Shown here: in pieces, positions 3,733 through 58,639 of the stretch
How the letters are laid out: each line of letters begins with the position of its first letter
Position numbering within the stretch: position 1 is the first letter of the stretch
Assembly (NCBI GenBank): GCA_023634235.1
Contig: JAMKCF010000013.1
Span: forward strand, 2,046,001 to 2,110,000
DNA from: Pisaster brevispinus
Taxonomy: Eukaryota; Echinodermata; Asteroidea; Forcipulatida; Asteriidae
DNA: 64,000 bases
Direction of reading: 5' to 3'
Notes under the pieces: generated by a model
Database searches by the model: none
Told to the model about the DNA's origin: nothing
Seen by the model: the letters and a program-made list of their open reading frames with translations, nothing else
Program-made: the position numbers and the translations under genes

Positions 3733-6265
3733 GATGAGTAATGAAGAGGGTAAGGGTTGTTGGTTGGGGTGAGGAATGAAGAGGGTTGTGGTTGTTGGTT
3801 GGGGTGAGGAATGAAGAGGGTTGTGGTTGTTGGTTAAGGTGGGGAATGAAGAGGGTTAGGGTTGTTGGTTAAGGTGAGGAATGAAGAGGGTTAGGGTCGT
3901 GGGTTTGGGTGATGAATGAAGAGGGTTAGGGTTGTTGGTTGGGGTGAGGAATGAAGAGGGTAAGGGTTGTTGGTTGGGGTGAGGAATGAATAGGGTTGTG
4001 GTTGTTGGTTAAGGTGGGGAATGAAGAGGGTTAGGGTTGTTGGTTAAGGTGAGGAATGAAGAGGGTTAGGGTTGTTGGTTAAGGTAAGGAATGAAGAGGG
4101 TAAGGGTTGTTGGTTAAGGTGAGGAATGAACAGGGTTAGGGTTGTTGGTTGAGGTGAGGAATGAAGAGGGTTGTGGTTGTTGGTTAAGGTGGGGAATGAA
4201 GAGGGTTAGGGTTGTTGGTTAAGGTGAGGAATGAAGAGGGTTAGGGTTGTTGGTTGGGGTGAGGAATGAAGAGGGTTGTGGTTGTTGGTTGGGGTGAGGA
4301 ATGAAGAGGGTTGTGGTTGTTGGTTAAGGTGGGGAATGAAGAGGGTTAGGGTTGTTGGTTAAGGTGGGGAATGAAGAGGGTTAGGGTTGTTGGTTGGGGT
4401 GAGGAATGAAGAGGGTTGTGGTTGTTGGTTGGGGTGAGGAATGAAGAGGGTTGTGGTTGTTGGTTAAGGTGGGGAATGAAGAGGGTAAGGGTCGTGGGTT
4501 TGGGTGATGAATGAAGAGGGTTAGGGTTGTTGGTTGGGGTGAGGAATGAAGAGGGTTAGGGTTGTTGGTTAAGGTGGGGAATGAAGAGGGTTAGGGTTGT
4601 TGGTTAAGGTGGGGAATGAAGAGGGTTAGGGTTGTTGGTTGGGGTGAGGAATGAAGAGGGTTAGGGTTGTTGGTTGGGGTGAGGAATGAAGAGGGTTGTG
4701 GTTGTTGGTTAAGGTGGGGAATGAAGAGAGTTAGGGTTGTTGGTTAAGGTGGGGAATGAAGAGGGTTAGGGTTGTTGGTTGGGGTGAGGAATGAAGAGGG
4801 TTGTGGTTGTTGGTTGGGGTGAGGAATGAAGAGGGTTGTGGTTGTTGGTTAAGGTGGGGAATGAAGAGGGTTGTGGTTGTTGGTTAAGGTGGGGAATGAA
4901 GAGGGTAAGGGTTGTTGGTTAGGGTGAGGAATGAAGAGGGTGAGGGTTGTTGGTTAAGGTGAGGAATGAAGAGGGTTGTGGTTGTTGGTTAAGGTGGGGA
5001 AAGAAGAGGGTAAGGGTTGTTGGTTAGGGTGAGGAATAAAGAGGGTGAGGGTTGTTGGTTGAGGTGAGGAATGAAGAGGGTTGTGGTTGTTGGTTAAGGT
5101 GGGGAATGAAGAAGGTTAGCGTTGTTGGTTGGGGTGAGGAATGAAGAGGGTTAGGGTTGTGGGTTTGGGTGATGAATGAAGAGGGTTAGGGTTGTTGGTT
5201 GGGGTGAGGAATGAAGAGGGTTGTGGTTGTTGGTTAAGGTGGGGAATGAAGAGGGTTAATGGTTGTTGGTTGGGGTGAGGAATGAAGAGGGTTAGGGTTG
5301 TTGGTTGAGGTGAGGAATGAAGAGGGTTGTGGTTGTTGGTTAAGGTGGGGAATGAAGAGGGTAAGGGTTGTTGGTTAGGGTGAGGAATGAAGAGGGTGAG
5401 GGTTGTTGGTTGAGGTGAGGAATGAAGAGGGTTGTGGTTGTTGGTTAAGGTGGGGAATGAAGAAGGTTAGCGTTGTTGGTTGGGGTGAGGAATGAAGAGG
5501 GTTAGGGTCGTGGGTTTGGGTGATGAATGAAGAGGGTTAGGGTTGTTGGTTGGGGTGAGGAATGAAGAGGGTTGTGGTTGTTGGTTAAGGTGGGGAATGA
5601 AGAGGGTTAATGGTTGTTGGTTGGGGTGAGGAATGAAGAGGGTTAGGGTCGTGGGTTTGGGTGATGAATGAAGAGGTTTATGGTTGTTTGTTGAGGTGAG
5701 GAATGAAGAGGGTAAGGGTTGTTGGTTGGGATGAGGTATGAAGAGAGTTAGGGTCGTGGGTTTGGGTGATGAATAAAGAGAATTAGGGTCGTTGGTTGAG
5801 GTGAGGAATGAAGAGGGTAAGGGTTGTTGGTTAGGGTGAGGAATGAAGAGGGTGAGGGTTGTTGGTTGAGGTGAGGAATGAAGAGGGTTGTGGTTGTTGG
5901 TTAAGGTGGGGAATGAAGAGGGTTAGGGTCGTGGGTTTGGGTGATGAATGAAGAGGTTTAGGGTTGTTTGTTGAGGTGAGGAATGAAGAGGGTAAGGGTT
6001 GTTGGTTGGGGTGAGGAATGAAGAGGGTGAGGGTCGTGGGTTTGGGTGATGAATGAAGAGAGTTAGGGTTGTTGGTTGAGGTGAGGAATGAAGAGGGTTA
6101 GGGTTGTTGGTTGGGGTGAGGAATGAAGAGGGTGAGGGTTGTTGGTTGAGGTGAGGATTGAAGAGGGTAGGGTTGTTGGTTAGAATGAGGAATGGAGAGG
6201 GTGAGGGTTGTTGGTTGAGTTGAGGAATGAAGAGGGTTGGCGTTGTTGGTTGAGGTGGGGTTAAT
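3733..6265 (+). repeat. 35-bp telomere-like G-rich minisatellite
   Basis: About 72 head-to-tail units of 35 bp, each built of GAATGAAGAGGG followed by a GTTAGGG- or GTTGTGG-type block and TTGTTGGTT. Many units contain GGGTTAGGG, the metazoan telomere hexamer in context. Unit variants alternate irregularly: AAGGTGGGG, GGGGTGAGG, and a TCGTGGGTTTGGGTGATG type. A block of ten units is duplicated in tandem: the rare variants GAAGGTTAGC (5111 and 5462) and GGGTTAATGG (5253 and 5604) both recur at 351 bp. The plus strand is strongly G-rich, so G-quadruplex folding is possible. Confidence 0.95.
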
Positions 6266-13726: not shown

Positions 13727-13826
13727 NNNNNNNNNNNNNNNNNNNNNNNNNNNNNNNNNNNNNNNNNNNNNNNNNNNNNNNNNNNNNNNNNNNNNNNNNN
13801 NNNNNNNNNNNNNNNNNNNNNNNNNN
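13727..13826. other. assembly gap (100 N)
   Basis: Exactly 100 unknown bases, the usual placeholder for a gap of unknown size. It lies 168 bp downstream of the last recognised exon of the zinc-finger gene. Confidence 0.99.
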
Positions 13827-19942: not shown

Positions 19943-20015
19943 GGGCTAGATAACTCAGTTGGTAGAGTGCCGACACGTGAATCCGGAGGTCGTTGGTTCA
20001 AATCCCGCTTCAGTC
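19943..20015 (+). pseudogene. tRNA-like sequence (degenerate tRNA or SINE head)
   Basis: A D-arm-like box (ACTCAGTTGGTAGAGTGCC) and a B box (GGTTCAAATCC at 19995-20005) have tRNA spacing. The acceptor ends do not pair and the anticodon stem and T stem have mismatches, so a functional tRNA is unlikely. A T-rich stretch follows, as in Pol III units. Confidence 0.55.
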
Positions 20016-20387
20016 AATTTTTCTTTAATCAACCCCAAATTATTAAAATGTACCCAGTCAGATTCCCTTGTGGTTTATTACTTGATACTAAAAAACAATC
20101 TGTTCTCATTAAACAAACAAAAAACCTACCCGAAAACTTGCGATAGTTCTGAATTGTTATACGAGGCTTCGATGAGCCTCGAGACAATAACATAAAATCC
20201 AACTGCAAATCTAGAAATGATTTGTCTAATTAGCAATCATATCTATAATGAAAGGTTGTTTTTTTGGAAACGATTTGGAGAATGTATCGTGTGGAAATGA
20301 TTGCATGCTCGATTAGCATATAGCAATAGTGGACCTAAAAGGTGTTGGCATTCATGATTGAGAAAATAGAATTAGCTGCAAACTGCT

Positions 20388-32940: not shown

Positions 32941-33732
32941 CAACAGCGACACAATGTTTTTACGCTCACTAATTCCTGCCCATAAACAGGCAAGCAAGAT
33001 AAGATCGTCTTAAAACACGATATTCTCAAAAGATGAAGGCATCTCAGATGAGATAATTTCCCCAAACGATTGGCCCGTAAGCTACAATGACTTGACACAA
33101 CAGAACCAGCATTATTTGGGCGAGTTGATCGACACTTTTTCTTATCGATGGAAGAAGGAATGTTTGGAGGAGTTGTTTATCTGAGTAAGCCGCACGACAC
33201 TTGCGGATATACTGCAACCCACACACCCTGAAAAAAAAACCCACAAAAAAAACAAAAAAAACTTACACGTCACAGTACGTAGTGCACTTTATCTATTCAC
33301 TTTTAATATGTTATCAAAACACGAGCTCATTAAGACGACAACTGATTCGCGAAGACTTTGCTCGTTACAAGGAGACGATGCCGCATACTTCCAGAAATGT
33401 CATGAGCATATGGTTGGCGCCAGAGTCGGGGGGGGGGGGAGGGTGGGGGTGTGCTAGGAGATACATAAATGTCGATTGATGAACAAGAGAACACAGTTCA
33501 ATGTTAATTGACTTTTATTATGGTATGAAGGTGTACTTTCAGTTCTGATCCCGTTCCAAACATATCTGGCCAAAGCGAGGCTAGAAGGGAAATCGTCTGA
33601 CCCCTTAGATGTAATGGACATCATAATATGGTGCACACAAAAGGATATGGTTTCAAAAATAAGGCCTGCGATAAAAACCATTACAGTATATTGATCGAAA
33701 CGTCGAAAGAAAACAATTCACTCTTACAATGG

Positions 33733-33980
33733 TGTGTCGTGGCCGCGCGGCGAAGAGCACCGGACACAAGCTCTGGTGTTTCTGATCAGAGCAGAGTATG
33801 GGGTTCGAGTCCCAGTCCGGTCGTGGCCCTTGTGTGTGCTTGAGCAAGATACTTTCCCATAACTGATACGTCCTTCGGATGGGACATTGACCCATAAGTC
33901 CCGCGTGCACTAGGATTGGTAGTGCACGTACAAGAAACCAGAGCACTAATATCTTGGAAGGGTTAACCCCAGTGTTTCTG
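33733..33980 (+). mobile_element. SINE with tRNA-Leu-like head, copy 1
   Basis: The head starts GTGTCGTGGCCGCG and has a B box GGTTCGAGTCC at 33802-33812, a long variable region and an ACACAAG anticodon-loop-like segment. The body contains GCTTGAGCAAGATACTTTCC and GTCCTTCGGATGGGAC. The copy at 40540-40776 shares head and body in the opposite orientation. The 3' end is approximate. Confidence 0.75.
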
Positions 33981-39200: not shown

Positions 39201-42200
39201 ACGCATTTAGTTCTCTGCACAGTTATGCTACCATACATGACCCGCTCCGTTGAACGGTCTCGAATGGTCGGTCGACTCACTGGAAAATGTTAGCAAGAGA
39301 AGAACATTTTGATTGCCGTGGGCAAAAAAACTTGAACACTTCCACTGCCCATGTAAACACTGTCTGCAATACACGACTCCTATAATTGTCGCTAAAAAAT
39401 TTAATTGCGTTTGCTCTGAGCATTTATGGCCTCGCTGGGGTCTGTCTGTAAAGCATACATACCTAGGCACTTGATACTCAGTCAGGGAATATTTGCTTTT
39501 AATAAAAAAGGCCTCCATTCACGGGGCTTCTACTTTATTTAACGTTGAACACAGGTGGTTCAATACGAGCATCGAAATTAATTAGAAGAAAAAAAAATCC
39601 TGAAGCACTTTGATAAGGTCAGCTATTGAACACAGGTGTATAGGCGACCGGAACGAAGTATGCTGATTAATTGAAATCCGAGATTGTAATAGGGAATATT
39701 TCTTGAATCAATACTGGATAAGGGTGAGATAATGGTTGGAGGGTCTTCATTTGATACGTCGGTCTTAAAGTAAAAGCCTTGAGAGATGAGGTGATTGCCT
39801 GTATTATGTCTGAGATAAAAACAAATATTACCTTCAATATTAAGGTAGTCACAGTACGACTGTAGTGTTATTTGGTAGGTACTGTATTTTAAATATTATC
39901 TTCTTTAATCAGATCAACTTACAACATAACCAGGGAAAAAAAAAAGATAACTACAAATTCATACCATATGTTTTGGGAAATAAAGCATGCTGGACTGTTC
40001 TTCCAAAAGGCATCCAACTCAAAGAACCAATTCATCAATACAACATGAAGACAATTTGTAATAATCGGAAAACATTTGAATTTCCAGTCCCCCAGTGAGA
40101 TGACCAACCACTTGAAACTGCACGGGTTGTGTATGGTGTCACAGCTGTGCTTAGAAAACTTGGGGTGCCTACCCTTTGAAACTGAGGGCTTACAAAAAGG
40201 GATCCAGGTGTTTTGAAGGAGCGAGGACATCTTCGCTTCACTTTTGTGTACAAAAAACAAATGGAAGAACAAAGAGAAGTCTTTGATTTACCAGGTCAAC
40301 AAACATGTGTGTGTACGTGTGTGTACTGTGTAGATGAATTTGCCAAATGATACAAACCTGCGATAGACAAATAATAATACCGAGTTCTTCAAGCACTTTA
40401 TCTCACCCGATGGGCATCTCAAAGCAAAGTGTGTTTTTTTTCCTGCAAGGTTTGTGGAGCTACGTTTTGAAGTATGAGACTCATTCCTTTACATAGCACC
40501 ATGTACATGTAATGGTTTACAAGGTGCTGTGGCACAATATGCAGCAAGCAAACCAGGAACACCGGGGCGAACCCCTTCTCTTTACGATAAGTGCACTGGG
40601 TTCTTTTACAAACAGGACCTATGGCTTTACGTCCCATCCGAAGGACAAAGCAATAATGGTTAAAGTGTCTTGCTCAAGGACACAAGTGTCACGACCGGGA
40701 CTTGAACCCACACTCTGCTGATCAGAAACACTAGAGCTTGAGTCCGGTGTTCTTATCCGCTCAGCCACGACACGCCACAGGTTAAATTATGTCCGAGATC
40801 AAAACTACCTTTAACTTAAAGTAGTCACTGTACAATACACATGTAATCATTTAATTCATCTTTCATCAACCACAGCGATTGACATTGAATGGTCAGACAG
40901 TAACTGGGTTTTAATTAATTGGAAAGATGTTAAATTACACTACTAGGCAACAGAGAAAAACAAACAGTTATAGGAAAGAGAACACTCACAAAGGATTCAG
41001 AGATTTACATGCATTTTGTGGTGATTCGGACATGCATGAATTTTAAAACTGCAGCGACCCAGAGGCTCAAATTTCTGCAGATACATAGTTCTCCTTGTGT
41101 CTTTGGTCATCTTCACCACAGTGGAGGGGGGGGGGTCAAGGCAAATATTTTCCGAAGTAAGCTTTGAGAGGCTTCAGTGGAGGCTGCGGTCGGAAATAGC
41201 TCCCAGACGCCTGCGCGCATTTAATGCCAATTGCTAGTGGCCGGACGAGTCGTGCCATAGCATTTATCGTTCTGCAGCATCGTTTAGAATGAATTCACAG
41301 GCGTGGAGTTTGGAAGAAAACATTGAGCAGGTTTAGCTTTGTCAAGGCTCTTTAGTCGGGCTTGCTCGCTTGCATATCAATGCTGCCTCAGGCTTAAGTG
41401 GCATTACATACTGCTCGTACTGCATACTGTCTGGTTGAAGGGGCAATATGCACAGCCGGAAAACCAACGTCTGTATAATAGTCTATACTTATACAACCGA
41501 CCATGGGGCAACCAATGCATTAAACAACATAAGAACGTATTTGCTGTAATAAATCATTAAAGACAGGGTATTTACCTTTGATAATTACTACAAACAATTA
41601 ATGACCATAAAAAATGACTTGGTAAGAAGGACTGAAGCTGTTGATTATGTATAACATTTTGAGAAAACATTTCCTTGTAAGGAATGTGGTTTTAGAGAGA
41701 GGGATTAAAAATTTAAATCTGAGACGTTTCTGCCTGGAACACGTTTCTCAGATTATGCATACCAGTTAGGATTTATTCTTCCTGCATGCACATAACCACT
41801 CCAGATTTTTGCTAATATCTCAAAAACACTACCACCTTTTGAAATTAAATTTTCACAGGTTAAATGTTTGTATCGTTATAAGATTAAAACAATCAAACGG
41901 TTCTAAAAACCAAAGGTATACTTTGCCTATAACAATAATCATGAGTTACTGAGAGTAGACACACCTATATTGTATTAACACACATATCTGTCTCCTCCCA
42001 AAAAGCCTGATATAATTAACTAAACTATTTTACACTAAGATGACAAACCATCGATACACAGGACAAGCAGAGATACATGTACCTGTATTTGCTCAAATAC
42101 AACTGCAATAGCTTTTACACTGAATTTTAAAGGGGAAAAAAAGAGACATATTTACCAATGTATTCTTTCCGCTTGCAATGTCCCATAGTCTAAGCCGATC

Positions 42201-48200: not shown

Positions 48201-48513
48201 AGCCGCTTAGTAATATTAGTTAGACATTACAAAAGGTTTTAAAAGGTTTTATTTATAGTTTGAAAACATTATGATTGAAAAATTTAACATGTCATGAAGT
48301 ACATAATTATTCCACACATGCTTGACAATAAATGACTTACTATTTCCCCTCTGTAGGATCGATATCCAAAGTATTAATTCCACTCTGATGAATTCTCTGT
48401 ACATCTCTGCCTTTACTCAGTTCTAAACAAAAAGTTCTTCTCGTCACTTCAGCACGAACCAGAGACTCGGGTTTCTGTCTCCCGTTCTGAAGACCTTCCA
48501 GAAAACTCAACAT
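36263..48513 (-). CDS. ERCC8: ERCC8 (CSA), WD40 DNA-repair protein
   Basis: Nine exons in transcript order: 48513-48341, 46345-46244, 45175-44970, 44453-44318, 43453-43350, 42280-42156, 37408-37211, 36824-36726 and 36334-36263. All have GT-AG introns and consistent phases, giving 404 residues (human protein about 396). The product is the WD40 substrate receptor of the CUL4-DDB1 ubiquitin ligase that acts on stalled RNA polymerase II in transcription-coupled repair. Landmarks: an N-terminus with [47 protein letters not shown]; blade ends LKVWDT, LMLWDI, LRLWDI and [17 protein letters not shown]; and the acidic C-terminus [10 protein letters not shown]. The order matches the vertebrate protein throughout. 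The last exon was set by an AG acceptor at 36335-36336 that keeps phase. The introns hold many inserted repeats. It is divergent from NDUFAF2, as in vertebrates. Confidence 0.96.
36461..36580. mobile_element. MITE, GACCCCTTG family, in ERCC8 intron 8
   Basis: The ends GACCCCTTG and CAAGGAGTC are inverted repeats. The internal block CAGTGAGGGCGCTGTTTG and the following GTGATGTCATAGGCAAGG match the element at 62261-62403. It lies between the last two ERCC8 exons. Confidence 0.6.
38059..38261. mobile_element. foldback-type MITE in ERCC8 intron 6
   Basis: About 203 bp, with arms of about 70 bp that are near-perfect inverted repeats. The left end is GTTTGCGGTAACACCATG and the right end CATGGTGTTACCGCAAAC. 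The arms run in to AGGTCTTGCTT/AAGCAAGACCT. There is no coding capacity. Confidence 0.9.
38262..42155 (-). other. ERCC8 intron 6 (proximal part), repeats only
   Basis: This is the larger, upstream part of intron 6 (the full intron is 37409-42155). It contains a GACGTTTCGATCAGAG-type repeat near 39047, the SINE at 40540-40776 and AT-rich DNA. No other gene was recognised. Confidence 0.6.
40540..40776 (-). mobile_element. SINE with tRNA-Leu-like head, copy 2
   Basis: Read on the minus strand it starts GTGGCGTGTCGTGGCTGAGC. It has a CTCAAG anticodon-loop-like segment, a long variable arm and the B box GGTTCAAGTCC (40708-40698). The body follows, with CCTTGAGCAAGACACTTT and GTCCTTCGGATGGGACGTA. 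The D-arm and long variable arm fit a tRNA-Leu(CAA)-type ancestor. It lies in ERCC8 intron 6, in sense orientation with the gene. Confidence 0.85.
42335..42625. mobile_element. MITE with CGTCCTCACTTAAA arms, ERCC8 intron 5
   Basis: Inverted arms of about 50 bp: left ATGCTTGTTTACTAATTTAA then GCAAAACGTCCTCACTTAAA; right TTAAGTGAGGACGCTTTGC then TTAGTAAGCAAGCAT. The total is about 290 bp. There is no coding capacity. Confidence 0.8.
45805..45927. mobile_element. short foldback element in ERCC8 intron 2
   Basis: Imperfect inverted arms of about 50 bp centred near 45866: ATTTTGGGAGTCA with GACTCCCAAAAT, and outward GCGCACCT with AGGTGCG. Confidence 0.6.
48125..48160. repeat. perfect 16-bp hairpin in ERCC8 intron 1
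   Basis: GTGAAAAGTTGCTGTG is followed by a 4-nt loop (AATA) and its exact reverse complement. Confidence 0.9.
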
Positions 48514-48908
48514 GACTCTGACTGGTTTCCGTCACTGAAAAATGTCCATACTGTGAAGCACCGGAATAAGTGAGCCTCTTTCTATTCCCTTTCTATTTCA
48601 CATGATTTGTTTCTTGTTTGTGTATGGGTTTTTAGGTGAACAACACAGCGCAACAATTTCATCAATGTTGTGCAAGGTCAAGAGCAGTGTGATGGGGGAT
48701 GCCATATTGTTACCCTTCATCGCTTGAGACAACATTTTGACCACTAAATTTAATCATTTTGTCAAATATTACATACATTTGTTTTGTTTTTAAATTAAAA
48801 ATTATTAATTTATATTACGATTATTAAGTTTGATGTAATTATTTATTTTATTAAAACTTATTTATGAACAAATGAAACAAACATTCCGAAAGAGTAAACA
48901 AATTTGAC
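48514..48908. promoter_or_regulatory. ERCC8 side of the split bidirectional promoter
   Basis: The 395 bp between the ERCC8 start codon and the inserted element. It includes an ETS-type CCGGAA at 48561-48566 and no clear TATA box near the gene. Together with 56817-56978 it would form a compact intergenic region of about 557 bp. Promoter function is inferred from the head-to-head gene layout. Confidence 0.5.
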
Positions 48909-49059
48909 ACCGAGCTGAAGCTAGCACAGTATTGGGCCCAAAATAGCCAGCCGCGTATTCGCGGAACGGCCAGCCGCGTATTCACGAAATTAGAATACAT
49001 GCAGTACAGGGAGGTGACAAAAGGGCTCATTTGGCTCATTTCGGTCGGCGAATCCGTTA

Positions 49060-49108
49060 CTTTATCCATGGAGGAAGAAAATGTATTTTCTTCCTCCATG
49101 CTTTATCC
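49060..49108. repeat. 33-nt palindrome flanked by 8-bp direct repeats
   Basis: CTTTATCC at 49060-49067 and 49101-49108 flanks an insert with arms ATGGAGGAAGAAAAT and ATTTTCTTCCTCCAT. The corresponding place in the right arm (near 56510) has one uninterrupted copy of this region, so the left arm gained the insert. Confidence 0.85.
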
Positions 49109-49310
49109 GAGCGAATACTGAAATTCTAGCCATAACATTTTCTTTAGATAACATTGAAATGTTATAGCTATTAATCATTGAAAATCAATAAACAAACAAA
49201 AATAAGTCGCTAAATAACAGAAAATTAGCCGCAAACACGGAGACAATGTGCGTGTGTTATGTCAAATTTGTTTTAATGCAGTTTATAAATACAATAACAT
49301 AATTTGAAAA

Positions 49311-49705
49311 GAGTTTGTACCCTTCGTTATGAATAAAAGTGAAAGTTTTAGCCCAGAATCTTAAAGACTGATACACTGGGCATACCACATTTGTGAGCTG
49401 GCTAATTTGGTCCACTAATTAGTAGTTAATTAACAACAGTTATACAGACACCATTTTCCATCTAAAACACGCACAAATGCATATGCGGTTGAGACAACTA
49501 CCTCTTGTGAAGAATTTGTACCCTTCATTATGAATAAAAGTGGAAGTTTTAGTCCAGAACCTTGAAGACTGATACACTGGGCACACCAAATTTTTGAGCT
49601 GGCTAATTTGGTCCACTAATTAGTTCTTACTTAACCACAGCTAAACAGACGCCATTTTCTATATATAACAGGCATATTTGCATTTGCCGTTGAGTAAGCT
49701 ACCTC
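49311..49705 (+). repeat. two tandem sub-repeats in the left arm
   Basis: Two units of about 195 bp. Each contains GTACCCTTC-TTATGAATAAAAG, ACTGATACACTGGGC, GAGCTGGCTAATTTGGTCC, ACGCCATTTT or ACACCATTTT, and CTACCTCTT. The same unit occurs about three times, inverted, at 55778-56305. Confidence 0.9.
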
Positions 49706-49768
49706 TTTAAATTAAAATTACAATTCACCATAAACAAAATAACTCCCTTATTGCCTCCCAATCCAAAT

Positions 49769-49940
49769 TGTAATTTTCAGTTATAAATGGAAAATCATTT
49801 TATAATTTGATGTTCTGTAAACATAACTAAAGCTCTTGATATTTACTTTTCCTAACATCATTAATAATACCCCCAGCTTTAGTTATGTATACAGAACATC
49901 CAATTACAAAATGATTTACCATTTATAACTGAAAATTACA
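49769..49940. mobile_element. inverted-repeat insert inside the left arm region
   Basis: Arms of about 67 bp: the left begins TGTAATTTTCAGTTATAAAT and the right ends ATTTATAACTGAAAATTACA. It is flanked by diverged direct repeats containing AACTCCCTTATT...CCTCCCAATC (near 49741 and 49966). Confidence 0.8.
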
Positions 49941-50264
49941 TTTTGCCGTGAACAAAAATTGTATTACTCCCTTAATTATTTCCTCCCAATCAAAATTACG
50001 AAAAGGTTAATGTTCAACTTACAGCAACGCATACAAGTGAAAATTAATCAATAAGATCAACTTTTAAATCTCATGAATTTTATTTAATTTCTGGACAGTA
50101 TAGGCCTAATAAGCAATAAAAAAAAAAGTAACATGTTATAAAATTATCTGTTAACATGCATTATGCAGCTTTTAATAATCATGACCTATGGAAGGCAAAC
50201 AACGCCCTCTTTTGGTTCTGCCTCAACTGAGCGGGAAAACATATCGCAGCCGGGCCCAGTTGTA

Positions 50265-50350
50265 GTTACCGGGAGGACAGTCAGCGCAACTAAATATGAA
50301 GAGTAGGTCGTGGTAGTGCATAGTACAAGACCCCGGTTCGAAGCGCAGCA
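50265..50350 (+). other. tRNA-like module 1
   Basis: A-box-like AGTCAGCGCAACTAAA and a B box GGTTCGAAGC at 50335-50344, followed by TTTTTATTTATTTTTTT, which resembles a Pol III terminator. Full cloverleaf pairing is not evident. Confidence 0.5.
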
Positions 50351-50413
50351 TTTTTATTTATTTTTTTAAACTGTTGTGTAACAAATTAGTTATAACGTGA
50401 ATAAACAGCACAA

Positions 50414-50500
50414 TTTTTGAGCTGGCCAGTTAGCGCAAGTTGATAGTTTAAAGGTAATGTAAATCGCAAGACCCAGGTTCGAGCCATGGCGGGTTTTTGT
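50414..50500 (+). other. tRNA-like module 2
   Basis: A-box-like CCAGTTAGCGCAAGTTGATAG and B box GGTTCGAGCC from 50476, followed by GGGTTTTTGTTTTTT. The B box is 141 bp from that of module 1. Confidence 0.55.
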
Positions 50501-50556
50501 TTTTTATCTTACTATTAAAGGTAAAGAAATATTTACATCTAAAATAAAACAAACTT

Positions 50557-50640
50557 CCAGTAGATCAGTCAGTTAGCGAAACTGGTTAAGTGATGGTATT
50601 GCATACCGCAAGACCCGAGTTCGAGCCCAGGTAGGCTATT
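50557..50640 (+). other. tRNA-like module 3
   Basis: A-box-like TCAGTTAGCGAAACTGGTTA and B box AGTTCGAGCC near 50618. It shares CCGCAAGACCC with module 2. The spacing to module 2 is about 142 bp. No strong T run follows at once. Confidence 0.5.
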
Positions 50641-50721
50641 AAAACCAATGAACAGATTTCTTTTTACCTTCATAAAAAATTAAGTTGACACTATATATTG
50701 GAAAAAACCAAAGGGTGGTGG

Positions 50722-50797
50722 TGGGCAGTAACTTAGCGCAGAGGTAGGACGAGCGACTACAAGAGAGAAGGTGAGAGGATCAAATCACGGCGGGGCC
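50722..50797 (+). other. tRNA-like module 4, abutting the minisatellite
   Basis: A-box-like AACTTAGCGCAGAGGTAGGA and B-box-like GGATCAAATC at 50777-50786. The minisatellite begins within a few bases of its 3' end. This is the most degraded B box of the four. Confidence 0.45.
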
Positions 50798-53700
50798 CCA
50801 GCTGCTGCCAACTGCAACTGGGCCCCAGCTGCTGCCAACTGCAACTGGGCCCCAGCTGCTGCCAACTGCAACTGGGCCCCAGCTGCTGCCAACTGCAACT
50901 GCAACTGGGCCCCAGCTGCTGCCAACTGCAACTGCAACTGGGCCCCAGCTGCTGCCAACTGCAACTGGGCCCCAGCTGCTGCCAACTGCAACTGGGCCCC
51001 AGCTGCTGCCAACTGCAACTGGGCCCCAGCTGCTGCCAACTGCAACTGGGCCCCAGCTGCTGCCAACTGCAACTGGGCCCCAGCTGCTGCCAACTGCAAC
51101 TGGGCCCCAGCTGCTGCCAACTGCAACTGGGCCCCAGCTGCTGCCAACTGCAACTGGGCCCCAGCTGCTGCCAACTGCAACTGGGCCCCAGCTGCTGCCA
51201 ACTGCAACTGGGCCCCAGCTGCTGCCAACTGCAACTGGGCCCCAGCTGCTGCCAACTGCAACTGGGCCCCAGCTGCTGCCAACTGCAACTGGGCCCCAGC
51301 TGCTGCCAACTGCAACTGGGCCCCAGCTGCTGCCAACTGCAACTGGGCCCCAGCTGCTGCCAACTGCAACTGGGCCCCAGCTGCTGCCAACTGCAACTGG
51401 GCCCCAGCTGCTGCCAACTGCAACTGGGCCCCAGCTGCTGCCAACTGCAACTGGGCCCCAGCTGCTGCCAACTGCAACTGGGCCCCAGCTGCTGCCAACT
51501 GCAACTGGGCCCCAGCTGCTGCCAACTGCAACTGGGCCCCAGCTGCTGCCAACTGCAACTGGGCCCCAGCTGCTGCCAACTGCAACTGGGCCCCAGCTGC
51601 TGCCAACTGCAACTGGGCCCCAGCTGCTGCCAACTGCAACTGGGCCCCAGCTGCTGCCAACTGCAACTGGGCCCCAGCTGCTGCCAACTGCAACTGGGCC
51701 CCAGCTGCTGCCAACTGCAACTGGGCCCCAGCTGCTGCCAACTGCAACTGGGCCCCAGCTGCTGCCAACTGCAACTGGGCCCCAGCTGCTGCCAACTGCA
51801 ACTGGGCCCCAGCTGCTGCCAACTGCAACTGGGCCCCAGCTGCTGCCAACTGCAACTGGGCCCCAGCTGCTGCCAACTGCAACTGGGCCCCAGCTGCTGC
51901 CAACTGCAACTGGGCCCCAGCTGCTGCCAACTGCAACTGGGCCCCAGCTGCTGCCAACTGCAACTGGGCCCCAGCTGCTGCCAACTGCAACTGGGCCCCA
52001 GCTGCTGCCAACTGCAACTGGGCCCCAGCTGCTGCCAACTGCAACTGGGCCCCAGCTGCTGCCAACTGCAACTGGGCCCCAGCTGCTGCCAACTGCAACT
52101 GGGCCCCAGCTGCTGCCAACTGCAACTGGGCCCCAGCTGCTGCCAACTGCAACTGGGCCCCAGCTGCTGCCAACTGCAACTGGGCCCCAGCTGCTGCCAA
52201 CTGCAACTGGGCCCCAGCTGCTGCCAACTGCAACTGGGCCCCAGCTGCTGCCAACTGCAACTGGGCCCCAGCTGCTGCCAACTGCAACTGGGCCCCAGCT
52301 GCTGCCAACTGCAACTGGGCCCCAGCTGCTGCCAACTGCAACTGGGCCCCAGCTGCTGCCAACTGCAACTGGGCCCCAGCTGCTGCCAACTGCAACTGGG
52401 CCCCAGCTGCTGCCAACTGCAACTGGGCCCCAGCTGCTGCCAACTGCAACTGGGCCCCAGCTGCTGCCAACTGCAACTGGGCCCCAGCTGCTGCCAACTG
52501 CAACTGGGCCCCAGCTGCTGCCAACTGCAACTGGGCCCCAGCTGCTGCCAACTGCAACTGGGCCCCAGCTGCTGCCAACTGCAACTGGGCCCCAGCTGCT
52601 GCCAACTGCAACTGGGCCCCAGCTGCTGCCAACTGCAACTGGGCCCCAGCTGCTGCCAACTGCAACTGGGCCCCAGCTGCTGCCAACTGCAACTGGGCCC
52701 CAGCTGCTGCCAACTGCAACTGGGCCCCAGCTGCTGCCAACTGCAACTGGGCCCCAGCTGCTGCCAACTGCAACTGGGCCCCAGCTGCTGCCAACTGCAA
52801 CTGGGCCCCAGCTGCTGCCAACTGCAACTGGGCCCCAGCTGCTGCCAACTGCAACTGGGCCCCAGCTGCTGCCAACTGCAACTGGGCCCCAGCTGCTGCC
52901 AACTGCAACTGGGCCCCAGCTGCTGCCAACTGCAACTGGGCCCCAGCTGCTGCCAACTGCAACTGGGCCCCAGCTGCTGCCAACTGCAACTGGGCCCCAG
53001 CTGCTGCCAACTGCAACTGGGCCCCAGCTGCTGCCAACTGCAACTGGGCCCCAGCTGCTGCCAACTGCAACTGGGCCCCAGCTGCTGCCAACTGCAACTG
53101 GGCCCCAGCTGCTGCCAACTGCAACTGGGCCCCAGCTGCTGCCAACTGCAACTGGGCCCCAGCTGCTGCCAACTGCAACTGGGCCCCAGCTGCTGCCAAC
53201 TGCAACTGGGCCCCAGCTGCTGCCAACTGCAACTGGGCCCCAGCTGCTGCCAACTGCAACTGGGCCCCAGCTGCTGCCAACTGCAACTGGGCCCCAGCTG
53301 CTGCCAACTGCAACTGGGCCCCAGCTGCTGCCAACTGCAACTGGGCCCCAGCTGCTGCCAACTGCAACTGGGCCCCAGCTGCTGCCAACTGCAACTGGGC
53401 CCCAGCTGCTGCCAACTGCAACTGGGCCCCAGCTGCTGCCAACTGCAACTGGGCCCCAGCTGCTGCCAACTGCAACTGGGCCCCAGCTGCTGCCAACTGC
53501 AACTGGGCCCCAGCTGCTGCCAACTGCAACTGGGCCCCAGCTGCTGCCAACTGCAACTGGGCCCCAGCTGCTGCCAACTGCAACTGGGCCCCAGCTGCTG
53601 CCAACTGCAACTGGGCCCCAGCTGCTGCCAACTGCAACTGGGCCCCAGCTGCTGCCAACTGCAACTGGGCCCCAGCTGCTGCCAACTGCAACTGGGCCCC

Positions 53701-55774
53701 AGCTGCTGCCAACTGCAACTGGGCCCCAGCTGCTGCCAACTGCAACTGGGCCCCAGCTGCTGCCAACTGCAACTGGGCCCCAGCTGCTGCCAACTGCAAC
53801 TGGGCCCCAGCTGCTGCCAACTGCAACTGGGCCCCAGCTGCTGCCAACTGCAACTGGGCCCCAGCTGCTGCCAACTGCAACTGGGCCCCAGCTGCTGCCA
53901 ACTGCAACTGGGCCCCAGCTGCTGCCAACTGCAACTGGGCCCCAGCTGCTGCCAACTGCAACTGGGCCCCAGCTGCTGCCAACTGCAACTGGGCCCCAGC
54001 TGCTGCCAACTGCAACTGGGCCCCAGCTGCTGCCAACTGCAACTGGGCCCCAGCTGCTGCCAACTGCAACTGGGCCCCAGCTGCTGCCAACTGCAACTGG
54101 GCCCCAGCTGCTGCCAACTGCAACTGGGCCCCAGCTGCTGCCAACTGCAACTGGGCCCCAGCTGCTGCCAACTGCAACTGGGCCCCAGCTGCTGCCAACT
54201 GCAACTGGGCCCCAGCTGCTGCCAACTGCAACTGGGCCCCAGCTGCTGCCAACTGCAACTGGGCCCCAGCTGCTGCCAACTGCAACTGGGCCCCAGCTGC
54301 TGCCAACTGCAACTGGGCCCCAGCTGCTGCCAACTGCAACTGGGCCCCAGCTGCTGCCAACTGCAACTGGGCCCCAGCTGCTGCCAACTGCAACTGGGCC
54401 CCAGCTGCTGCCAACTGCAACTGGGCCCCAGCTGCTGCCAACTGCAACTGGGCCCCAGCTGCTGCCAACTGCAACTGGGCCCCAGCTGCTGCCAACTGCA
54501 ACTGGGCCCCAGCTGCTGCCAACTGCAACTGGGCCCCAGCTGCTGCCAACTGCAACTGGGCCCCAGCTGCTGCCAACTGCAACTGGGCCCCAGCTGCTGC
54601 CAACTGCAACTGGGCCCCAGCTGCTGCCAACTGCAACTGGGCCCCAGCTGCTGCCAACTGCAACTGGGCCCCAGCTGCTGCCAACTGCAACTGGGCCCCA
54701 GCTGCTGCCAACTGCAACTGGGCCCCAGCTGCTGCCAACTGCAACTGGGCCCCAGCTGCTGCCAACTGCAACTGGGCCCCAGCTGCTGCCAACTGCAACT
54801 GGGCCCCAGCTGCTGCCAACTGCAACTGGGCCCCAGCTGCTGCCAACTGCAACTGGGCCCCAGCTGCTGCCAACTGCAACTGGGCCCCAGCTGCTGCCAA
54901 CTGCAACTGGGCCCCAGCTGCTGCCAACTGCAACTGGGCCCCAGCTGCTGCCAACTGCAACTGGGCCCCAGCTGCTGCCAACTGCAACTGGGCCCCAGCT
55001 GCTGCCAACTGCAACTGGGCCCCAGCTGCTGCCAACTGCAACTGGGCCCCAGCTGCTGCCAACTGCAACTGGGCCCCAGCTGCTGCCAACTGCAACTGGG
55101 CCCCAGCTGCTGCCAACTGCAACTGGGCCCCAGCTGCTGCCAACTGCAACTGGGCCCCAGCTGCTGCCAACTGCAACTGGGCCCCAGCTGCTGCCAACTG
55201 CAACTGGGCCCCAGCTGCTGCCAACTGCAACTGGGCCCCAGCTGCTGCCAACTGCAACTGGGCCCCAGCTGCTGCCAACTGCAACTGGGCCCCAGCTGCT
55301 GCCAACTGCAACTGGGCCCCAGCTGCTGCCAACTGCAACTGGGCCCCAGCTGCTGCCAACTGCAACTGGGCCCCAGCTGCTGCCAACTGCAACTGGGCCC
55401 CAGCTGCTGCCAACTGCAACTGGGCCCCAGCTGCTGCCAACTGCAACTGGGCCCCAGCTGCTGCCAACTGCAACTGGGCCCCAGCTGCTGCCAACTGCAA
55501 CTGGGCCCCAGCTGCTGCCAACTGCAACTGGGCCCCAGCTGCTGCCAACTGCAACTGGGCCCCAGCTGCTGCCAACTGCAACTGGGCCCCAGCTGCTGCC
55601 AACTGCAACTGGGCCCCAGCTGCTGCCAACTGCAACTGGGCCCCAGCTGCTGCCAACTGCAACTGGGCCCCAGCTGCTGCCAACTGCAACTGGGCCCCAG
55701 CTGCTGCCAACTGCAACTGGGCCCCAGCTGCTGCCAACTGCAACTGGGCCCCAGCTGCTGCCAACTGCAACTGG
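50795..55774. repeat. 27-bp minisatellite, 184 units
   Basis: Each 27-bp unit contains CTGGGCCCCAGCTGCTGCC followed by AACTGCAA. Counting by the encoded nonapeptide gives 184 units over 4,980 bp. Units 4 and 5 are 33 bp (an extra CTGCAA-type hexamer). The others look identical. Because 27 is divisible by three and the unit has no stop in three of six frames, frames of more than 1,650 codons exist on both strands. They are repeat artefacts, not genes. Every unit has a PvuII-type CAGCTG and an ApaI-type GGGCCC palindrome. Confidence 0.98.
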
Positions 55775-55777
55775 GCG

Positions 55778-56305
55778 TCTGTGTAACTGTGATTGATTAA
55801 CCACTATTTAGTGGACCAAATTAGCCAGCTCAAAAATTTGGTGCGCCAGTGTATCAGTCTTTAATAATCTAGACTAAAACTTCAATTTAGGGTACAAATT
55901 CTTTACAAGAGGTAGTTTACTCAACCGCGTGCATTTGCGTGTTTTATATGGAAAATGGCGTCTAGATAATTTGGGTTAATTAACCACTAATTAGATGACC
56001 AAATTAGCCAGCTCAAAAACTTGGTATGCCCAGTGTATCAGTCTTTAAGTTTTTGGACTGAAACTTCCACTTTTTTTCATAATGAAGGGTACACATTTTT
56101 TACAAGAGGTAGTTGTCTCAACCGCATATGCATTTGTGCGTGTTTCAGATGGAAAATGGTGTCTGTATAACTGTTGTTAATTAACTACTAATCAGTGGGC
56201 CAAATTAGCCAGCTCAAAAATGTGGTGTGCCCAGTGTATCAGTCTTCAAGATTCTGGACTAAAACTTCCACTCTTATTCATAACGAAGGGTACAAACTCT
56301 TTTCA
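55778..56305 (-). repeat. three tandem sub-repeats in the right arm
   Basis: The inverted counterparts of 49311-49705, roughly three units. Each has AATTAGCCAGCTCAAAAA, CAGTGTATCAGTCTT and AAGAGGTAGTT. The minisatellite ends in GGGCGTCTG, where the GCGTCTG already belongs to a sub-repeat unit. The array is thus joined directly into the arm. Confidence 0.85.
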
Positions 56306-56644
56306 AATTATGTTATAGTATTTAAACTGCATATAATTTTTTTTGGACATAACACACGCACATTGTCTCCGTGTTTGCGCCTAATTTTCTGTTTTTTAGC
56401 GACTTGTTTTTGTTTGTTTATTGCTTTTCAATGATTAATAGCTATAACATTTCAATGTTATTTATTAAAAATCTGCAAGTTATGGCTAGAATTTCAGTAC
56501 TCGTTCAGATAAAGTAACGGGTTCGCCGACAGAAATGAGTCAAATGAGCCCTTTTGTCACCTCCCTGTACTGCATGTGTTCTAATTTTGTGATTACGCGG
56601 CTTTCTGTTCCGCGAATACGCGGCTGGCTATTTCGGGCCCAATA

Positions 56645-56783
56645 GACTGTGCAAGTCTCGCGCGTATTCGAACATTGGGATCCGTTAAAGCGCGTGAGTT
56701 TGTTTCTTTAACGCGTTAAAGCAATGTACGTGGGACCACAGTGGTCCCAAAAATGTTCGAATACGCGCGAGACTTGCACGGTC
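56645..56783. mobile_element. 139-bp MITE nested in the right arm
   Basis: The ends GACTGTGCAAGTCTCGCGCG and its near-complement CGCGCGAGACTTGCACGGTC are inverted arms of about 31 bp flanked by TA (56643-56644 and 56784-56785). The left arm of the host element has the uninterrupted sequence (AGCACAGTATTGGGCCC near 48926-48939), giving a direct empty site. The interior carries palindromes TTTAACGCGTTAAA and GGGACCACAGTGGTCCC. Confidence 0.9.
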
Positions 56784-56816
56784 TATACTGTGCTAGCTTC
56801 AGCTCGGTAATTTGAC

Positions 56817-56978
56817 CTCATTCCCCAAGGTCATAAGTCTGGTAAACATTTCACACGGGTAACACAAATTAAATTTAGTCGGGCTCCCAGTTAACTTAAT
56901 ACGCATTGAAAAGTTGAATGAGTTCACAACAAAACAAAACCGGCATTTAATCTACATGTATCTTCGATACTTCCAAAT
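56817..56978 (+). promoter_or_regulatory. NDUFAF2 side of the split bidirectional promoter
   Basis: The 162 bp between the inserted element and the NDUFAF2 start codon. No TATA box is obvious. If transcription starts here, any shared element on the ERCC8 side is now about 8 kb away. Alternatively the start may lie inside the transposon. Confidence 0.45.
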
Positions 56979-58639
56979 ATGAATTTTATCAGAGGCATCT
57001 TTCGGTTAGGGAGATCTTCCAAGATTCTTGTCGGTACTGATCATCTTGGAAATAAATACTTCGAGATTCCTGAAAGATCGACCTTCACGACCAAGGGTAA
57101 CGACTACCGCCGGTTACTTATAGTATACTTAACAATAACATACTTACTTTAGACTAGTACGTCTCCTCACTGTCAGTGTCAGTCAGACTGTGGACTATTC
57201 CAAATTCCAAAAACAATATTGTTTTGATTGAATGTTTGAACAAGAGATTGCTTAATCAAGTTTTATTGAGATGTGTTTGAGGCATGTGGGGGCGGGTAGG
57301 GGATGGGTGTGAGGGTATGGGAGGGGGTTGGTGTGAATGTGTACTGAAAGGGTGGGATACTTTATATGAGATGGGTGTGAAGGTAGTGTTGTACTATACT
57401 GTTTTTGAAACATGTGGTTGGGGGATGGGGGGGGGGCGGGTGTGCATGGTTGGAAATGACCTATAAAAACCATGGTAAGGCTCTCTGCATATGTACATTT
57501 GAATCACATCAATCCTATAGCTTAGCTTAGTTAAATTTATACTTTGTGATGCATTATGATTAATATGCCTACGTACATAATTGTGGTGTACGACGTCGAC
57601 CGTCGGGTCAGGATGATTGAGGGTTATGATCATCACAACTAGCTTCTGTTGTAGTACTACAGTGTACAGAGTAGTAGTAGCTAGTACTAGTTTCCATAAT
57701 AAAAACCTGTCTAAAGACTTTGGTTGGCATAGATTGAGACTAGAGTCATGTTCTTAAACAGTGCTTTGGACTCCTTCAGAATCGGATGGTCCTTAAGAAT
57801 TAGAGCGAGTCCAAAACATTGGCACTAATGGAGCTGTGGTTGACGTTGCATTTAACCTGAAGTATTGTTTGTGTTTGTTTGACAGAAGGGATATTGAAGG
57901 CAAGAAGGATCTGCGAGGCAAAGTATTCACATGCGGACTATGAGGAAGGAATGATTCCAATAGAATGGGAAGGTCTGAATTAGATCAGTGGAATGTCTCT
58001 TAATCACTAAAAAAATATTCATTTTCTGACAAATTTGGCTTTTAATCATTAATATTTTCTTTGTCTTTTCAGCATGGGTAAGAGGAAAGCGCAACGATCC
58101 CCCATCACACGAGGAGATCATGAGACGAGAACAGATGACGGTAATCGTCAAGAAAAGAGCCAAGGAACTTGAGGCTAAAGATCAAGAGGTACGCACAAAA
58201 TCAACCCCTGGCATACCTCCCAAAGGGCATTCAAGAAGATGTGTTAACAAGTCATCCAAGTCTACAGCTTTCATTCTTTGATGTATGTTGTTGTTAATGA
58301 ATGTGTATAATTCTTTGCTTCTGTTTCTTTAGAGACAATTACAGGATTACAAGGAAGGGCTCATAGCCCAACCAGCACAGACCAAGCAGATAGGTAAATG
58401 CTTCCCTCTTTTGTCTTTGTGTGTGGATAACTTTTGTCTTTCTGTGTGGATAAACATGGGTAATCAGTGGCTTTAATTTCATATGAATATCACTGAACTT
58501 ATTTGACATTTATCTTTTTAAAGGTCACGCCTCGGCGCCTGTATTCGAGACGACAGAATCTGGTCAGTCTGTCAGTACCGGGAACGAGTACGAGCCAGCT
58601 GCTTGGCAACCAGGTCAATCAGCATCGAAGGTCAAATGA
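56979..58639 (+). CDS. NDUFAF2: NDUFAF2 (mimitin), complex I assembly factor
   Basis: Five exons, 56979-57096, 57886-57972, 58073-58188, 58333-58393 and 58524-58639, join in phase with GT-AG introns to give 165 residues (human protein about 169). It belongs to the NDUFA12/B17.2 family, mitochondrial proteins that assist a late step of complex I assembly. Family landmarks in order: VGTDHLGNKYFEIP in exon 1, the basic ILKARRICEA in exon 2, IPIEWEAWVRGKRNDPPSHE across exons 2-3, a charged helical stretch in exons 3-4, and GHASAPVFE in exon 5. All match the vertebrate protein in position. The N-terminus MNFIRGIFRLGRSSK is basic and could aid mitochondrial targeting. The final residues KVK and the stop fall inside the first unit of a 74-bp tandem repeat that continues into the 3' UTR. 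It is divergent from ERCC8, as in vertebrates. Confidence 0.95.
57285..57440 (+). repeat. G-rich direct repeats in NDUFAF2 intron 1
   Basis: Two similar G-rich stretches (CATGTGGGGGCGGGTAGGGG near 57284 and CATGTGGTTGGGGGATGGGG near 57411) with many G3+ runs. Quadruplex folding of the sense strand is possible. Confidence 0.6.

Follow-up and report, generated by a model that had tools for sequence, protein, structure and literature searches.

A transposon of 7,900 bp with inverted arms, which carried a large and uniform satellite array, was found between the start codons of ERCC8 and NDUFAF2 in the window (the whole stretch of 64,000 nucleotides from Pisaster brevispinus that was analyzed). 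We consider it probable that a single insertion into a 557-bp gap was followed by growth of the array in place, both genes starting transcription in their own flanks under looser co-regulation. The locus offers a clean natural experiment, in which one insertion parts two divergent housekeeping genes.

The interval between ERCC8 and NDUFAF2

ERCC8 (minus strand) and NDUFAF2 (plus strand) formed a divergent pair with ATG codons at 48513 and 56979, respectively, and sea stars provided the best protein matches. The aligned coding part of ERCC8 exon 1 (48343-48513) matched Acanthaster planci ERCC8 (P0001) at 87.7% over residues 1-57, with the Met at 48513 on the first residue. For NDUFAF2 exon 1 (56979-57095), the match was 97.4% over residues 1-39 of Asterias amurensis NDUFAF2 (P0121), the Met at 56979 likewise falling on the first residue. 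The joined exon pieces of ERCC8 also matched the human ERCC8 chain 7oo3_a (2.1e-80), and NDUFAF2 exon 1 matched the solved NDUFAF2 chain 8ca5_t (2e-6).

The 8,465 bp between the start codons (48514-56978) consisted of the element (48909-56808; 7,900 bp), the second 8-bp target copy, and 557 bp of remaining DNA (387 + 8 + 162). The intergenic remnants on the ERCC8 side (387 bp; 48514-48900) and on the NDUFAF2 side (162 bp; 56817-56978) ended at the target site duplication AATTTGAC, an exact repeat at 48901-48908 and 56809-56816; no other copy occurred on the plus strand of the window, and the reverse complement was found at two places (11501 and 49261). Just inside the two copies were perfect inverted tips of 24 bp each. 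The tip of the element is represented by ACCGAGCTG and ACCGAGCTGAAGC. These results bore out the sequence-only reading, which had proposed divergent genes with start codons 8.4 kb apart, all but about 557 bp of the interval being an element with inverted ends and a perfect 8-bp target duplication.

The inverted arms as a whole were imperfect (679/739 aligned columns, 92%, with indels). In the left arm (48909-49711, plus), a tandem repeat of 201 bp was present twice (49309-49707), and the right arm (55787-56808, minus) contained approximately 2.1 copies (TRF; 55889-56306) together with a truncated piece of the repeat at the array edge. Nested inserts were present in both: in the left arm, 41 bp private to this copy (49060-49108), in which a 34-bp palindrome (49067-49100; two 15-bp arms and a center of 4 bases) was flanked on each side by CTTTATCC, and a palindromic MITE-like insert of approximately 141-145 bp with TA or TAT ends in the right arm (56642-56786), the site of which was also filled in one arm of another copy (C18_0.84). 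The interior found on the left only (49712-50792, plus) comprised modules with tRNA-type promoter boxes as well as a hairpin with 80-bp arms (49764-49945). Matches to miRNA hairpins at 49774-49933 were below the Rfam gathering scores and reflected this 80-bp-arm hairpin; they were not regarded as genes.

A dispersed Mutator/Foldback-like family

In the 550-Mb assembly, the tip was found at 37 exact sites and at 81 sites with up to 3 mismatches (reversed control: 0). Twenty-five paired copies were read, including that of the window: 13 had target duplications of 8 or 9 bp (9 perfect and 4 with one mismatch; 0 in 600 mismatched flank pairs as the control), and 12 did not. Terminal inverted repeats and target duplications at unrelated places are those of a DNA transposon, and the long composite arms with internal tandem repeats (approximately 0.8-1.0 kb with the 201-bp repeat in the window) are of the Foldback type. 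The number of arm repeats varied between copies, and in some copies the repeat was not listed by TRF. No transposase-like sequence was detected among stop-to-stop frames of at least 150 aa in the 25 copies (spliced genes could be missed), and the single frame of this length that was not repeat-dominated (194 aa, in C9_13.11) was array sequence. Fourteen MULE-domain matches were present in the genome, the nearest being 70 kb from any of the 81 tip sites.

The Mutator superfamily has target duplications of approximately 8-11 bp, while those of hAT, P, and Merlin are 8 bp, strictly so in hAT; the tip ACCGAGCTG is not known to be a diagnostic Mutator end. The length observed here, which varied between 8 and 9 bp among 13 of the 25 copies, was of the Mutator type, and two perfect 9-bp duplications (C11_1.70 and C43_0.23) did not conform to the strict length of hAT. 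Membership in a different superfamily whose duplications are of 8 bp (hAT, P, or Merlin) instead of Mutator/Foldback retains a minor share of the probability: seven of the nine perfect duplications were 8 bp, no transposase was linked to the copies, and Foldback-type elements carry differing transposases, P-type in Galileo, according to the accessible part of PMC3169594. However, 9-bp duplications, seen in two of the nine perfect and two of the four one-mismatch cases, would not arise from a family strictly limited to 8 bp, and Foldback-type elements with duplications of 8-10 bp have been described (PMC4079207; PMC3169594, each as far as available).

Judged from structure, the family is a dispersed, Mutator/Foldback-like one with no transposase linked to it. 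The anatomy of the window copy, together with the family, shows a single insertion of a non-autonomous DNA transposon in the gap of 557 bp that separated ERCC8 from NDUFAF2, with duplication of 8 bp of the target; movement by cut and paste would be expected from the element type. Since even the nearest arm in the copies read was only 89-90% similar to the arms of the window element (10-11% diverged), the element may have been in place for a long time, and its effects may have been compensated for already.

Possible consequences for the start regions of ERCC8 and NDUFAF2

The earlier proposal was that a satellite-bearing transposon had split a shared bidirectional promoter; the transposon between the start codons is strongly supported, and the split is plausible. 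Without the element, a gap of 557 bp is compatible with one shared promoter and also with two adjacent promoters. ERCC8 retains 387 bp next to its start and NDUFAF2 retains 162 bp, so that each gene most likely continues to be transcribed from its own flank. Any regulatory element common to both genes would now be 7.9 kb from one of them, and the expected effect would be looser co-regulation, not the loss of expression.

It is possible, although we think it rather unlikely, that a shared promoter never existed, and that the insertion fell harmlessly between two independent promoters placed back to back. An interval of 557 bp would be wide enough for both, and the strings scanned in the two remnants differed, except for AAGGTCA and initiator-like ones. 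On the other hand, the head-to-head order is present in the sea star as it is in vertebrates. ERCC8, NDUFAF2, and SMIM15 are also described as close neighbors in human in the part of PMC12659240 available, which concerns a deletion covering several genes and has no bearing on a shared promoter. AAGGTCA occurred in both remnants (48674 and 56827) as one of 14 strings tried, and is not claimed as a common motif. The promoter term was absent among the matches listed for literature on ERCC8, NDUFAF2, and a bidirectional promoter.

Somewhat less probable is a polymorphic allele in the assembled haplotype, with other individuals keeping the short interval. The target duplication is still perfect, and the flank on the ERCC8 side (48514-48908) had one match in the assembly, namely itself, such that only one haplotype is visible. 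However, the joined empty site of 31 bp had no match in the assembly with up to 3 mismatches, which excludes an alternative haplotype within the assembly, but not polymorphism, and the divergence of the arms from the nearest arms read also stands against this reading.

We regard as unlikely a start of one gene, more probably NDUFAF2, within the transposon, or from a non-coding first exon beyond it (the element then lying in a 5' intron). Only 162 bp separate the right target copy from the ATG of NDUFAF2, and the TATA-like string among those scanned was found in the ERCC8-side remnant only. Against this, none of the four promoter insertions of maize Mu tested altered expression, as reported in the available part of PMC7337890. 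In the same source, Mu shows enrichment close to transcription starts, and five of 20 insertions in 5' UTRs led to knockout or strong knockdown. The effect could therefore be strong if the element is located in a 5' UTR here.

The central array and the adjoining module

The 27-bp array GGGCCCCAGCTGCTGCCAACTGCAACT (50793-55776, plus) contained 184 exact units without substitution (50793-55772), with spacings of 27 bp in 181 cases and 33 bp in two. Open reading frames of approximately 1,680 aa in all frames were array only and not a protein, because the 27-bp unit is free of stop codons in every frame. A 15/16-bp match of the unit to the element's own sequence, on the opposite strand near 50252, was reached by one of 300 Markov sequences, and is a weak lead that the array may have originated there. 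Single-strand folding of three units (z of -0.83 on one strand and -2.36 on the other) may favor hairpin-driven slippage weakly at best.

The family is unusual in that most copies read hold their own repeat array: arrays of 26-27 bp were present in 23 of the 25 paired copies, and in 21 of these a conserved module bearing tRNA-type promoter boxes lay next to the array. Units were near-uniform within the arrays of most copies; since some arrays were mixed, uniformity is common, but not universal. Unit sequence and array size differed between copies with flanks 98-99% identical. In eight copies with a left 1.2 kb 98.0-98.8% identical, a private unit ran through nearly the entire array in two, and the five without an assembly gap had approximately 10 to 377 units. 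Because near-uniform arrays differ in unit and size among copies so alike, they have probably been rewritten in place, and the copy-private arrays elsewhere in the family suggest that growth and homogenization in place also shaped the array of the window. With transposons that are otherwise 98-99% alike and yet hold different arrays from copy to copy, the start and homogenization of a satellite become directly testable in one genome.

In C6_3.55, the total of approximately 1,183 units was discarded as a size estimate because an arm piece and a gap lay within the array span; its first gap-free stretch contained 680/680 identical units. A misjoin or array artefact at the present locus is very improbable because, in spite of the difficulty of assembling 5-kb arrays, a 100-N gap in or between arrays in 4 of the 25 copies, and the seeming duplication of C6_3.55 around its gap, the window copy is free of N, its perfect 8-bp duplication lies outside perfect inverted tips, and 23 of the 25 copies share the build of arms and array.

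Using A- and B-box consensus strings, three box pairs were found on the plus strand of the left-only interior: two by consensus match only (50444-50485 and 50574-50627) and one in the module abutting the array (50734-50786). This module was present in 22 of the 25 copies (A box, 22/22; B box, 20/22), with a distance between box starts of 44 nt in 19 of 20 and 45 nt in one; A and B boxes at tRNA-like spacing are those of a predicted type-2 promoter of RNA polymerase III. The Rfam tRNA model gave no match to 49700-50800 at E values up to 5. The first TTTT was located past the array in 19 of 20 copies (the exception being C6_3.55, with the arm piece and gap inside its array span), and this does not constitute independent evidence because the unit lacks TTTT. 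We hold it improbable that the family acts as a self-enlarging nursery of satellites, in which the polymerase III-type module would transcribe through the TTTT-less array and transcription (R-loops, fork stalling) would drive expansion and homogenization in place. If this were true, a polymerase III unit pointing to NDUFAF2 and a changeable GC-rich array would be situated between two polymerase II start regions.

Comparison with known elements

The TU elements of sea urchin, reportedly described by Lieberman et al. in 1983, are said to be echinoderm elements of the Foldback type with long inverted repeats, 8-bp duplications, and modular arms, and are likened here by description only; they reportedly differ in an arm repeat of approximately 15 bp, and we know of no large central satellite in them. 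TU elements were absent among the matches listed for sea urchin Foldback literature, as was the sea star among those listed for sea star satellite DNA and transposable elements. Helentrons are of the Helitron type and, unlike the present family, are not inverted-arm elements. Those of Crassostrea gigas (PMC7492417, available in part) are similarly non-autonomous and spread short satellite-like arrays through the genome.

Tm1 Mutator/Foldback elements of root-knot nematodes (PMC3169594) resembled the present family in composite arms with tandem repeats and in nested insertions; in the part of the source available, the arms of the same element averaged 93% similarity, and duplications of 8-10 bp were found in 45 of 53. 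They differed in a duplication most commonly of 9 bp, in some copies encoding a putative transposase, and in that the description, to the extent available, contained no large central satellite. Insertion near a gene start, as at the present locus, is common for the superfamily in Mu and Pack-MULE, which, unlike the present family, are plant elements (PMC7337890, accessible part).

Tetris of Drosophila virilis (PMC4079207) was likewise Foldback-like with long arms and duplications of 8-10 bp, and its arms hold a tandem repeat of approximately 220 bp, comparable to the 201-bp repeat here. As far as the available part of that report goes, complete copies have no conserved ORF, internal repeats are amplified into satellite arrays, and its authors suggested the Mutator superfamily from the duplication length and earlier work. 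While Tetris amplifies the arm repeat, the present family had an unrelated central unit of 26-27 bp next to the module that bears tRNA-type boxes, and, unlike in the description of Tetris available, this central array was found in 23 of the 25 copies read and was mostly near-uniform within each copy.

The ERCC8-NDUFAF2 interval and the inserted element

ERCC8 and NDUFAF2 are divergent in vertebrates. The sequence-only reading placed them divergently here as well, with start codons approximately 8.4 kb apart, and alignments to sea star proteins bore this out: since the start codons of ERCC8 (48513, minus strand) and NDUFAF2 (56979, plus strand) each aligned to residue 1, the 8,465-bp interval is genuine. 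The protein matches suggested a sea star host: the best match of the joined ERCC8 exon pieces was Acanthaster planci ERCC8 (85% over 77% of the query), while a crude NDUFAF2 query matched Asterias amurensis (73% over 82%); the value for the window against residues 1-39 of the latter protein was 97.4%. The same reading had assigned all but about 557 bp of the gap to an element with inverted ends and a perfect 8-bp target duplication. The element was bounded at 48909-56808 (7,900 bp), ended in inverted tips that match perfectly over 24 bp, and was flanked on each side by the duplication AATTTGAC; subtraction of the element and one target copy left 557 bp, consisting of 387 bp on the ERCC8 side, the 8-bp target, and 162 bp on the NDUFAF2 side. 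Every other checkable number of that reading also agreed with our analysis. AAGGTCA, a nuclear-receptor half-site, was present in both remnants of the gap (48674 and 56827), and this may be chance.

Effect on the genes

No match to an empty site was found in the assembly, and the ERCC8-side flank occurred in one place; a second haplotype in the assembly was thus excluded, while the insertion may still be polymorphic. In maize, the regions near gene starts show strong enrichment for Mu insertions; expression was altered in 0 of 4 tested promoter insertions, and 5 of 20 within 5' UTRs caused knockout or strong knockdown (PMC7337890). Human ERCC8, NDUFAF2, and SMIM15 lie close together, and a deletion including ERCC8 exon 1 was accompanied by lower NDUFAF2 and SMIM15 expression (PMC12659240); since several genes were spanned, this deletion is uninformative on a shared promoter. 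In our judgement, each gene probably continues to function from its own flank, and co-regulation of the two may have been loosened. That the element split a shared promoter makes a good hypothesis. More unusual is the family itself, made up of elements with inverted arms, most of which carry their own array beside a conserved promoter-like module.

The family in the genome

When the assembly (550 Mb, 512 contigs) was searched for the tip, 81 sites with up to 3 mismatches were found, including 37 exact matches; a reversed-tip control gave 0. From these 81 sites, 25 copies bounded by tips on both sides, including that of the window, were chosen by eye, and the other 31 sites were left out. Under one scoring rule, target duplications were perfect in 9 copies (8 bp in 7 and 9 bp in 2), contained one mismatch in 4, and were absent in 12; left flanks paired with the right flanks of other copies gave 0/600. 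The 12 copies with both tips and no duplication, candidate rearrangement breakpoints, may reflect recombination between copies or mere decay. The long composite arms included a 201-bp tandem repeat, and no transposase-like frame of at least 150 amino acids was found in the copies read. Together with the variable 8-9-bp duplications, these features agree with Foldback-type elements, the majority of which reportedly fall within Mutator (PMC4079207). The 14 MULE transposase matches in the genome were not tied to the family because the nearest was 70 kb from a tip site.

Arrays and the adjacent module

The window array consisted of 184 exact 27-bp units (50793-55772). An array was present in 23 of the 25 copies, the smallest having ~6 units (C11_6.14); C21_2.67 had ~two units and C26_3.36 none. 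The left array junction had 34 matches genome-wide (up to 2 mismatches), 30 of which had a tip site no more than 6 kb away. A conserved module with tRNA-type A and B boxes was found in 22 of the 25 copies (A box in 22/22, B box in 20/22), with a spacing between box starts of 44 nt in 19 of 20 and 45 nt in one, and immediately preceded the array in 21 of 23 array-bearing copies; only its tail was left in C11_6.14, and C4_10.90 had none. The left interior of the window copy contained three A-B pairs, all on the plus strand, with one per strand in the rest of the window, and the Rfam tRNA model had no match in this left interior at E up to 5. The module is, from its sequence, a putative promoter-like motif.

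Units within a copy were often uniform (e.g., 264/264, 376/376, 107/107, and 88/88), and perfect uniformity was also seen in two copies with one-mismatch duplications (C11_5.13 and C9_18.58). The window unit was common to several copies, and others had different units. Assembly consensus could overstate this uniformity; mixed arrays were nevertheless represented (main unit 41/51 in C4_10.90 and 305/531 in C43_0.23), and the C9_13.11 array was split into many short regular stretches. Array sizes were uncertain in C11_2.76, C43_0.23, C18_0.45, and C6_3.55 because each holds a 100-N gap in or between arrays. In C6_3.55 (34 kb), 680/680 units of the first gap-free stretch were identical, and 201-bp arm-type repeats and the gap lay between two array stretches, a layout reflecting either a nested copy or assembly duplication. 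Irregular or 26-, 28-, and 29-bp units, partly from C- or G-run length changes, occurred in C43_0.23, C9_13.11, C18_0.84, and C18_0.45, and could be homopolymer sequencing error or real.

In eight copies, the left 1.2-kb halves were 98.0-98.8% identical in every pair, and the five gap-free copies among them had ~10, 64, 183, 290, and 377 units. In two of the eight, a private unit made up all or almost all of the array: C11_1.70 (376/376) and C9_14.51 (4,750/4,754 regularly repeated positions). The simplest reading of these sequences is that arrays grow and become uniform after insertion, outpacing divergence of the flanks.

Nested inserts and age of the window copy

The inner arms of the element were imperfect (679/739 aligned columns identical). 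In the left arm (49060-49108), two copies of CTTTATCC flanked a palindrome of 34 bp (two 15-bp arms with 4 bases between them); the palindrome was absent from the other 24 copies read and resembles a tiny insertion that has an 8-bp duplication of its own. A MITE-like palindromic insert was found in the right arm (56642-56786). One arm of C18_0.84 has it too, at the identical site, so this insert is probably older than the insertion of the element here; relative to the array, the arm concerned in C18_0.84 is the opposite one, possibly a sign of arm exchange. The arms of the window copy showed 89-90% similarity to their closest counterpart in the copies read, against 97-99% for young-group left arms, which places the window copy outside the recent burst; the perfect duplication limits how great the age of the insertion can be.

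Other features of the window

A 100-N run at 13727-13826 is a scaffold gap. An unrelated second array at 3728-6257 (35-bp unit, 72 copies, 87% match) was much more variable than the 27-bp one. A stretch at 19944-20016 matched tRNA in Rfam, and ARAGORN reported a tRNA-Leu (40686-40776) in a second at 40615-40777; the tRNA-Leu stretch recurred inverted at 33730-33901, and these stretches are possibly tRNA-derived SINEs.
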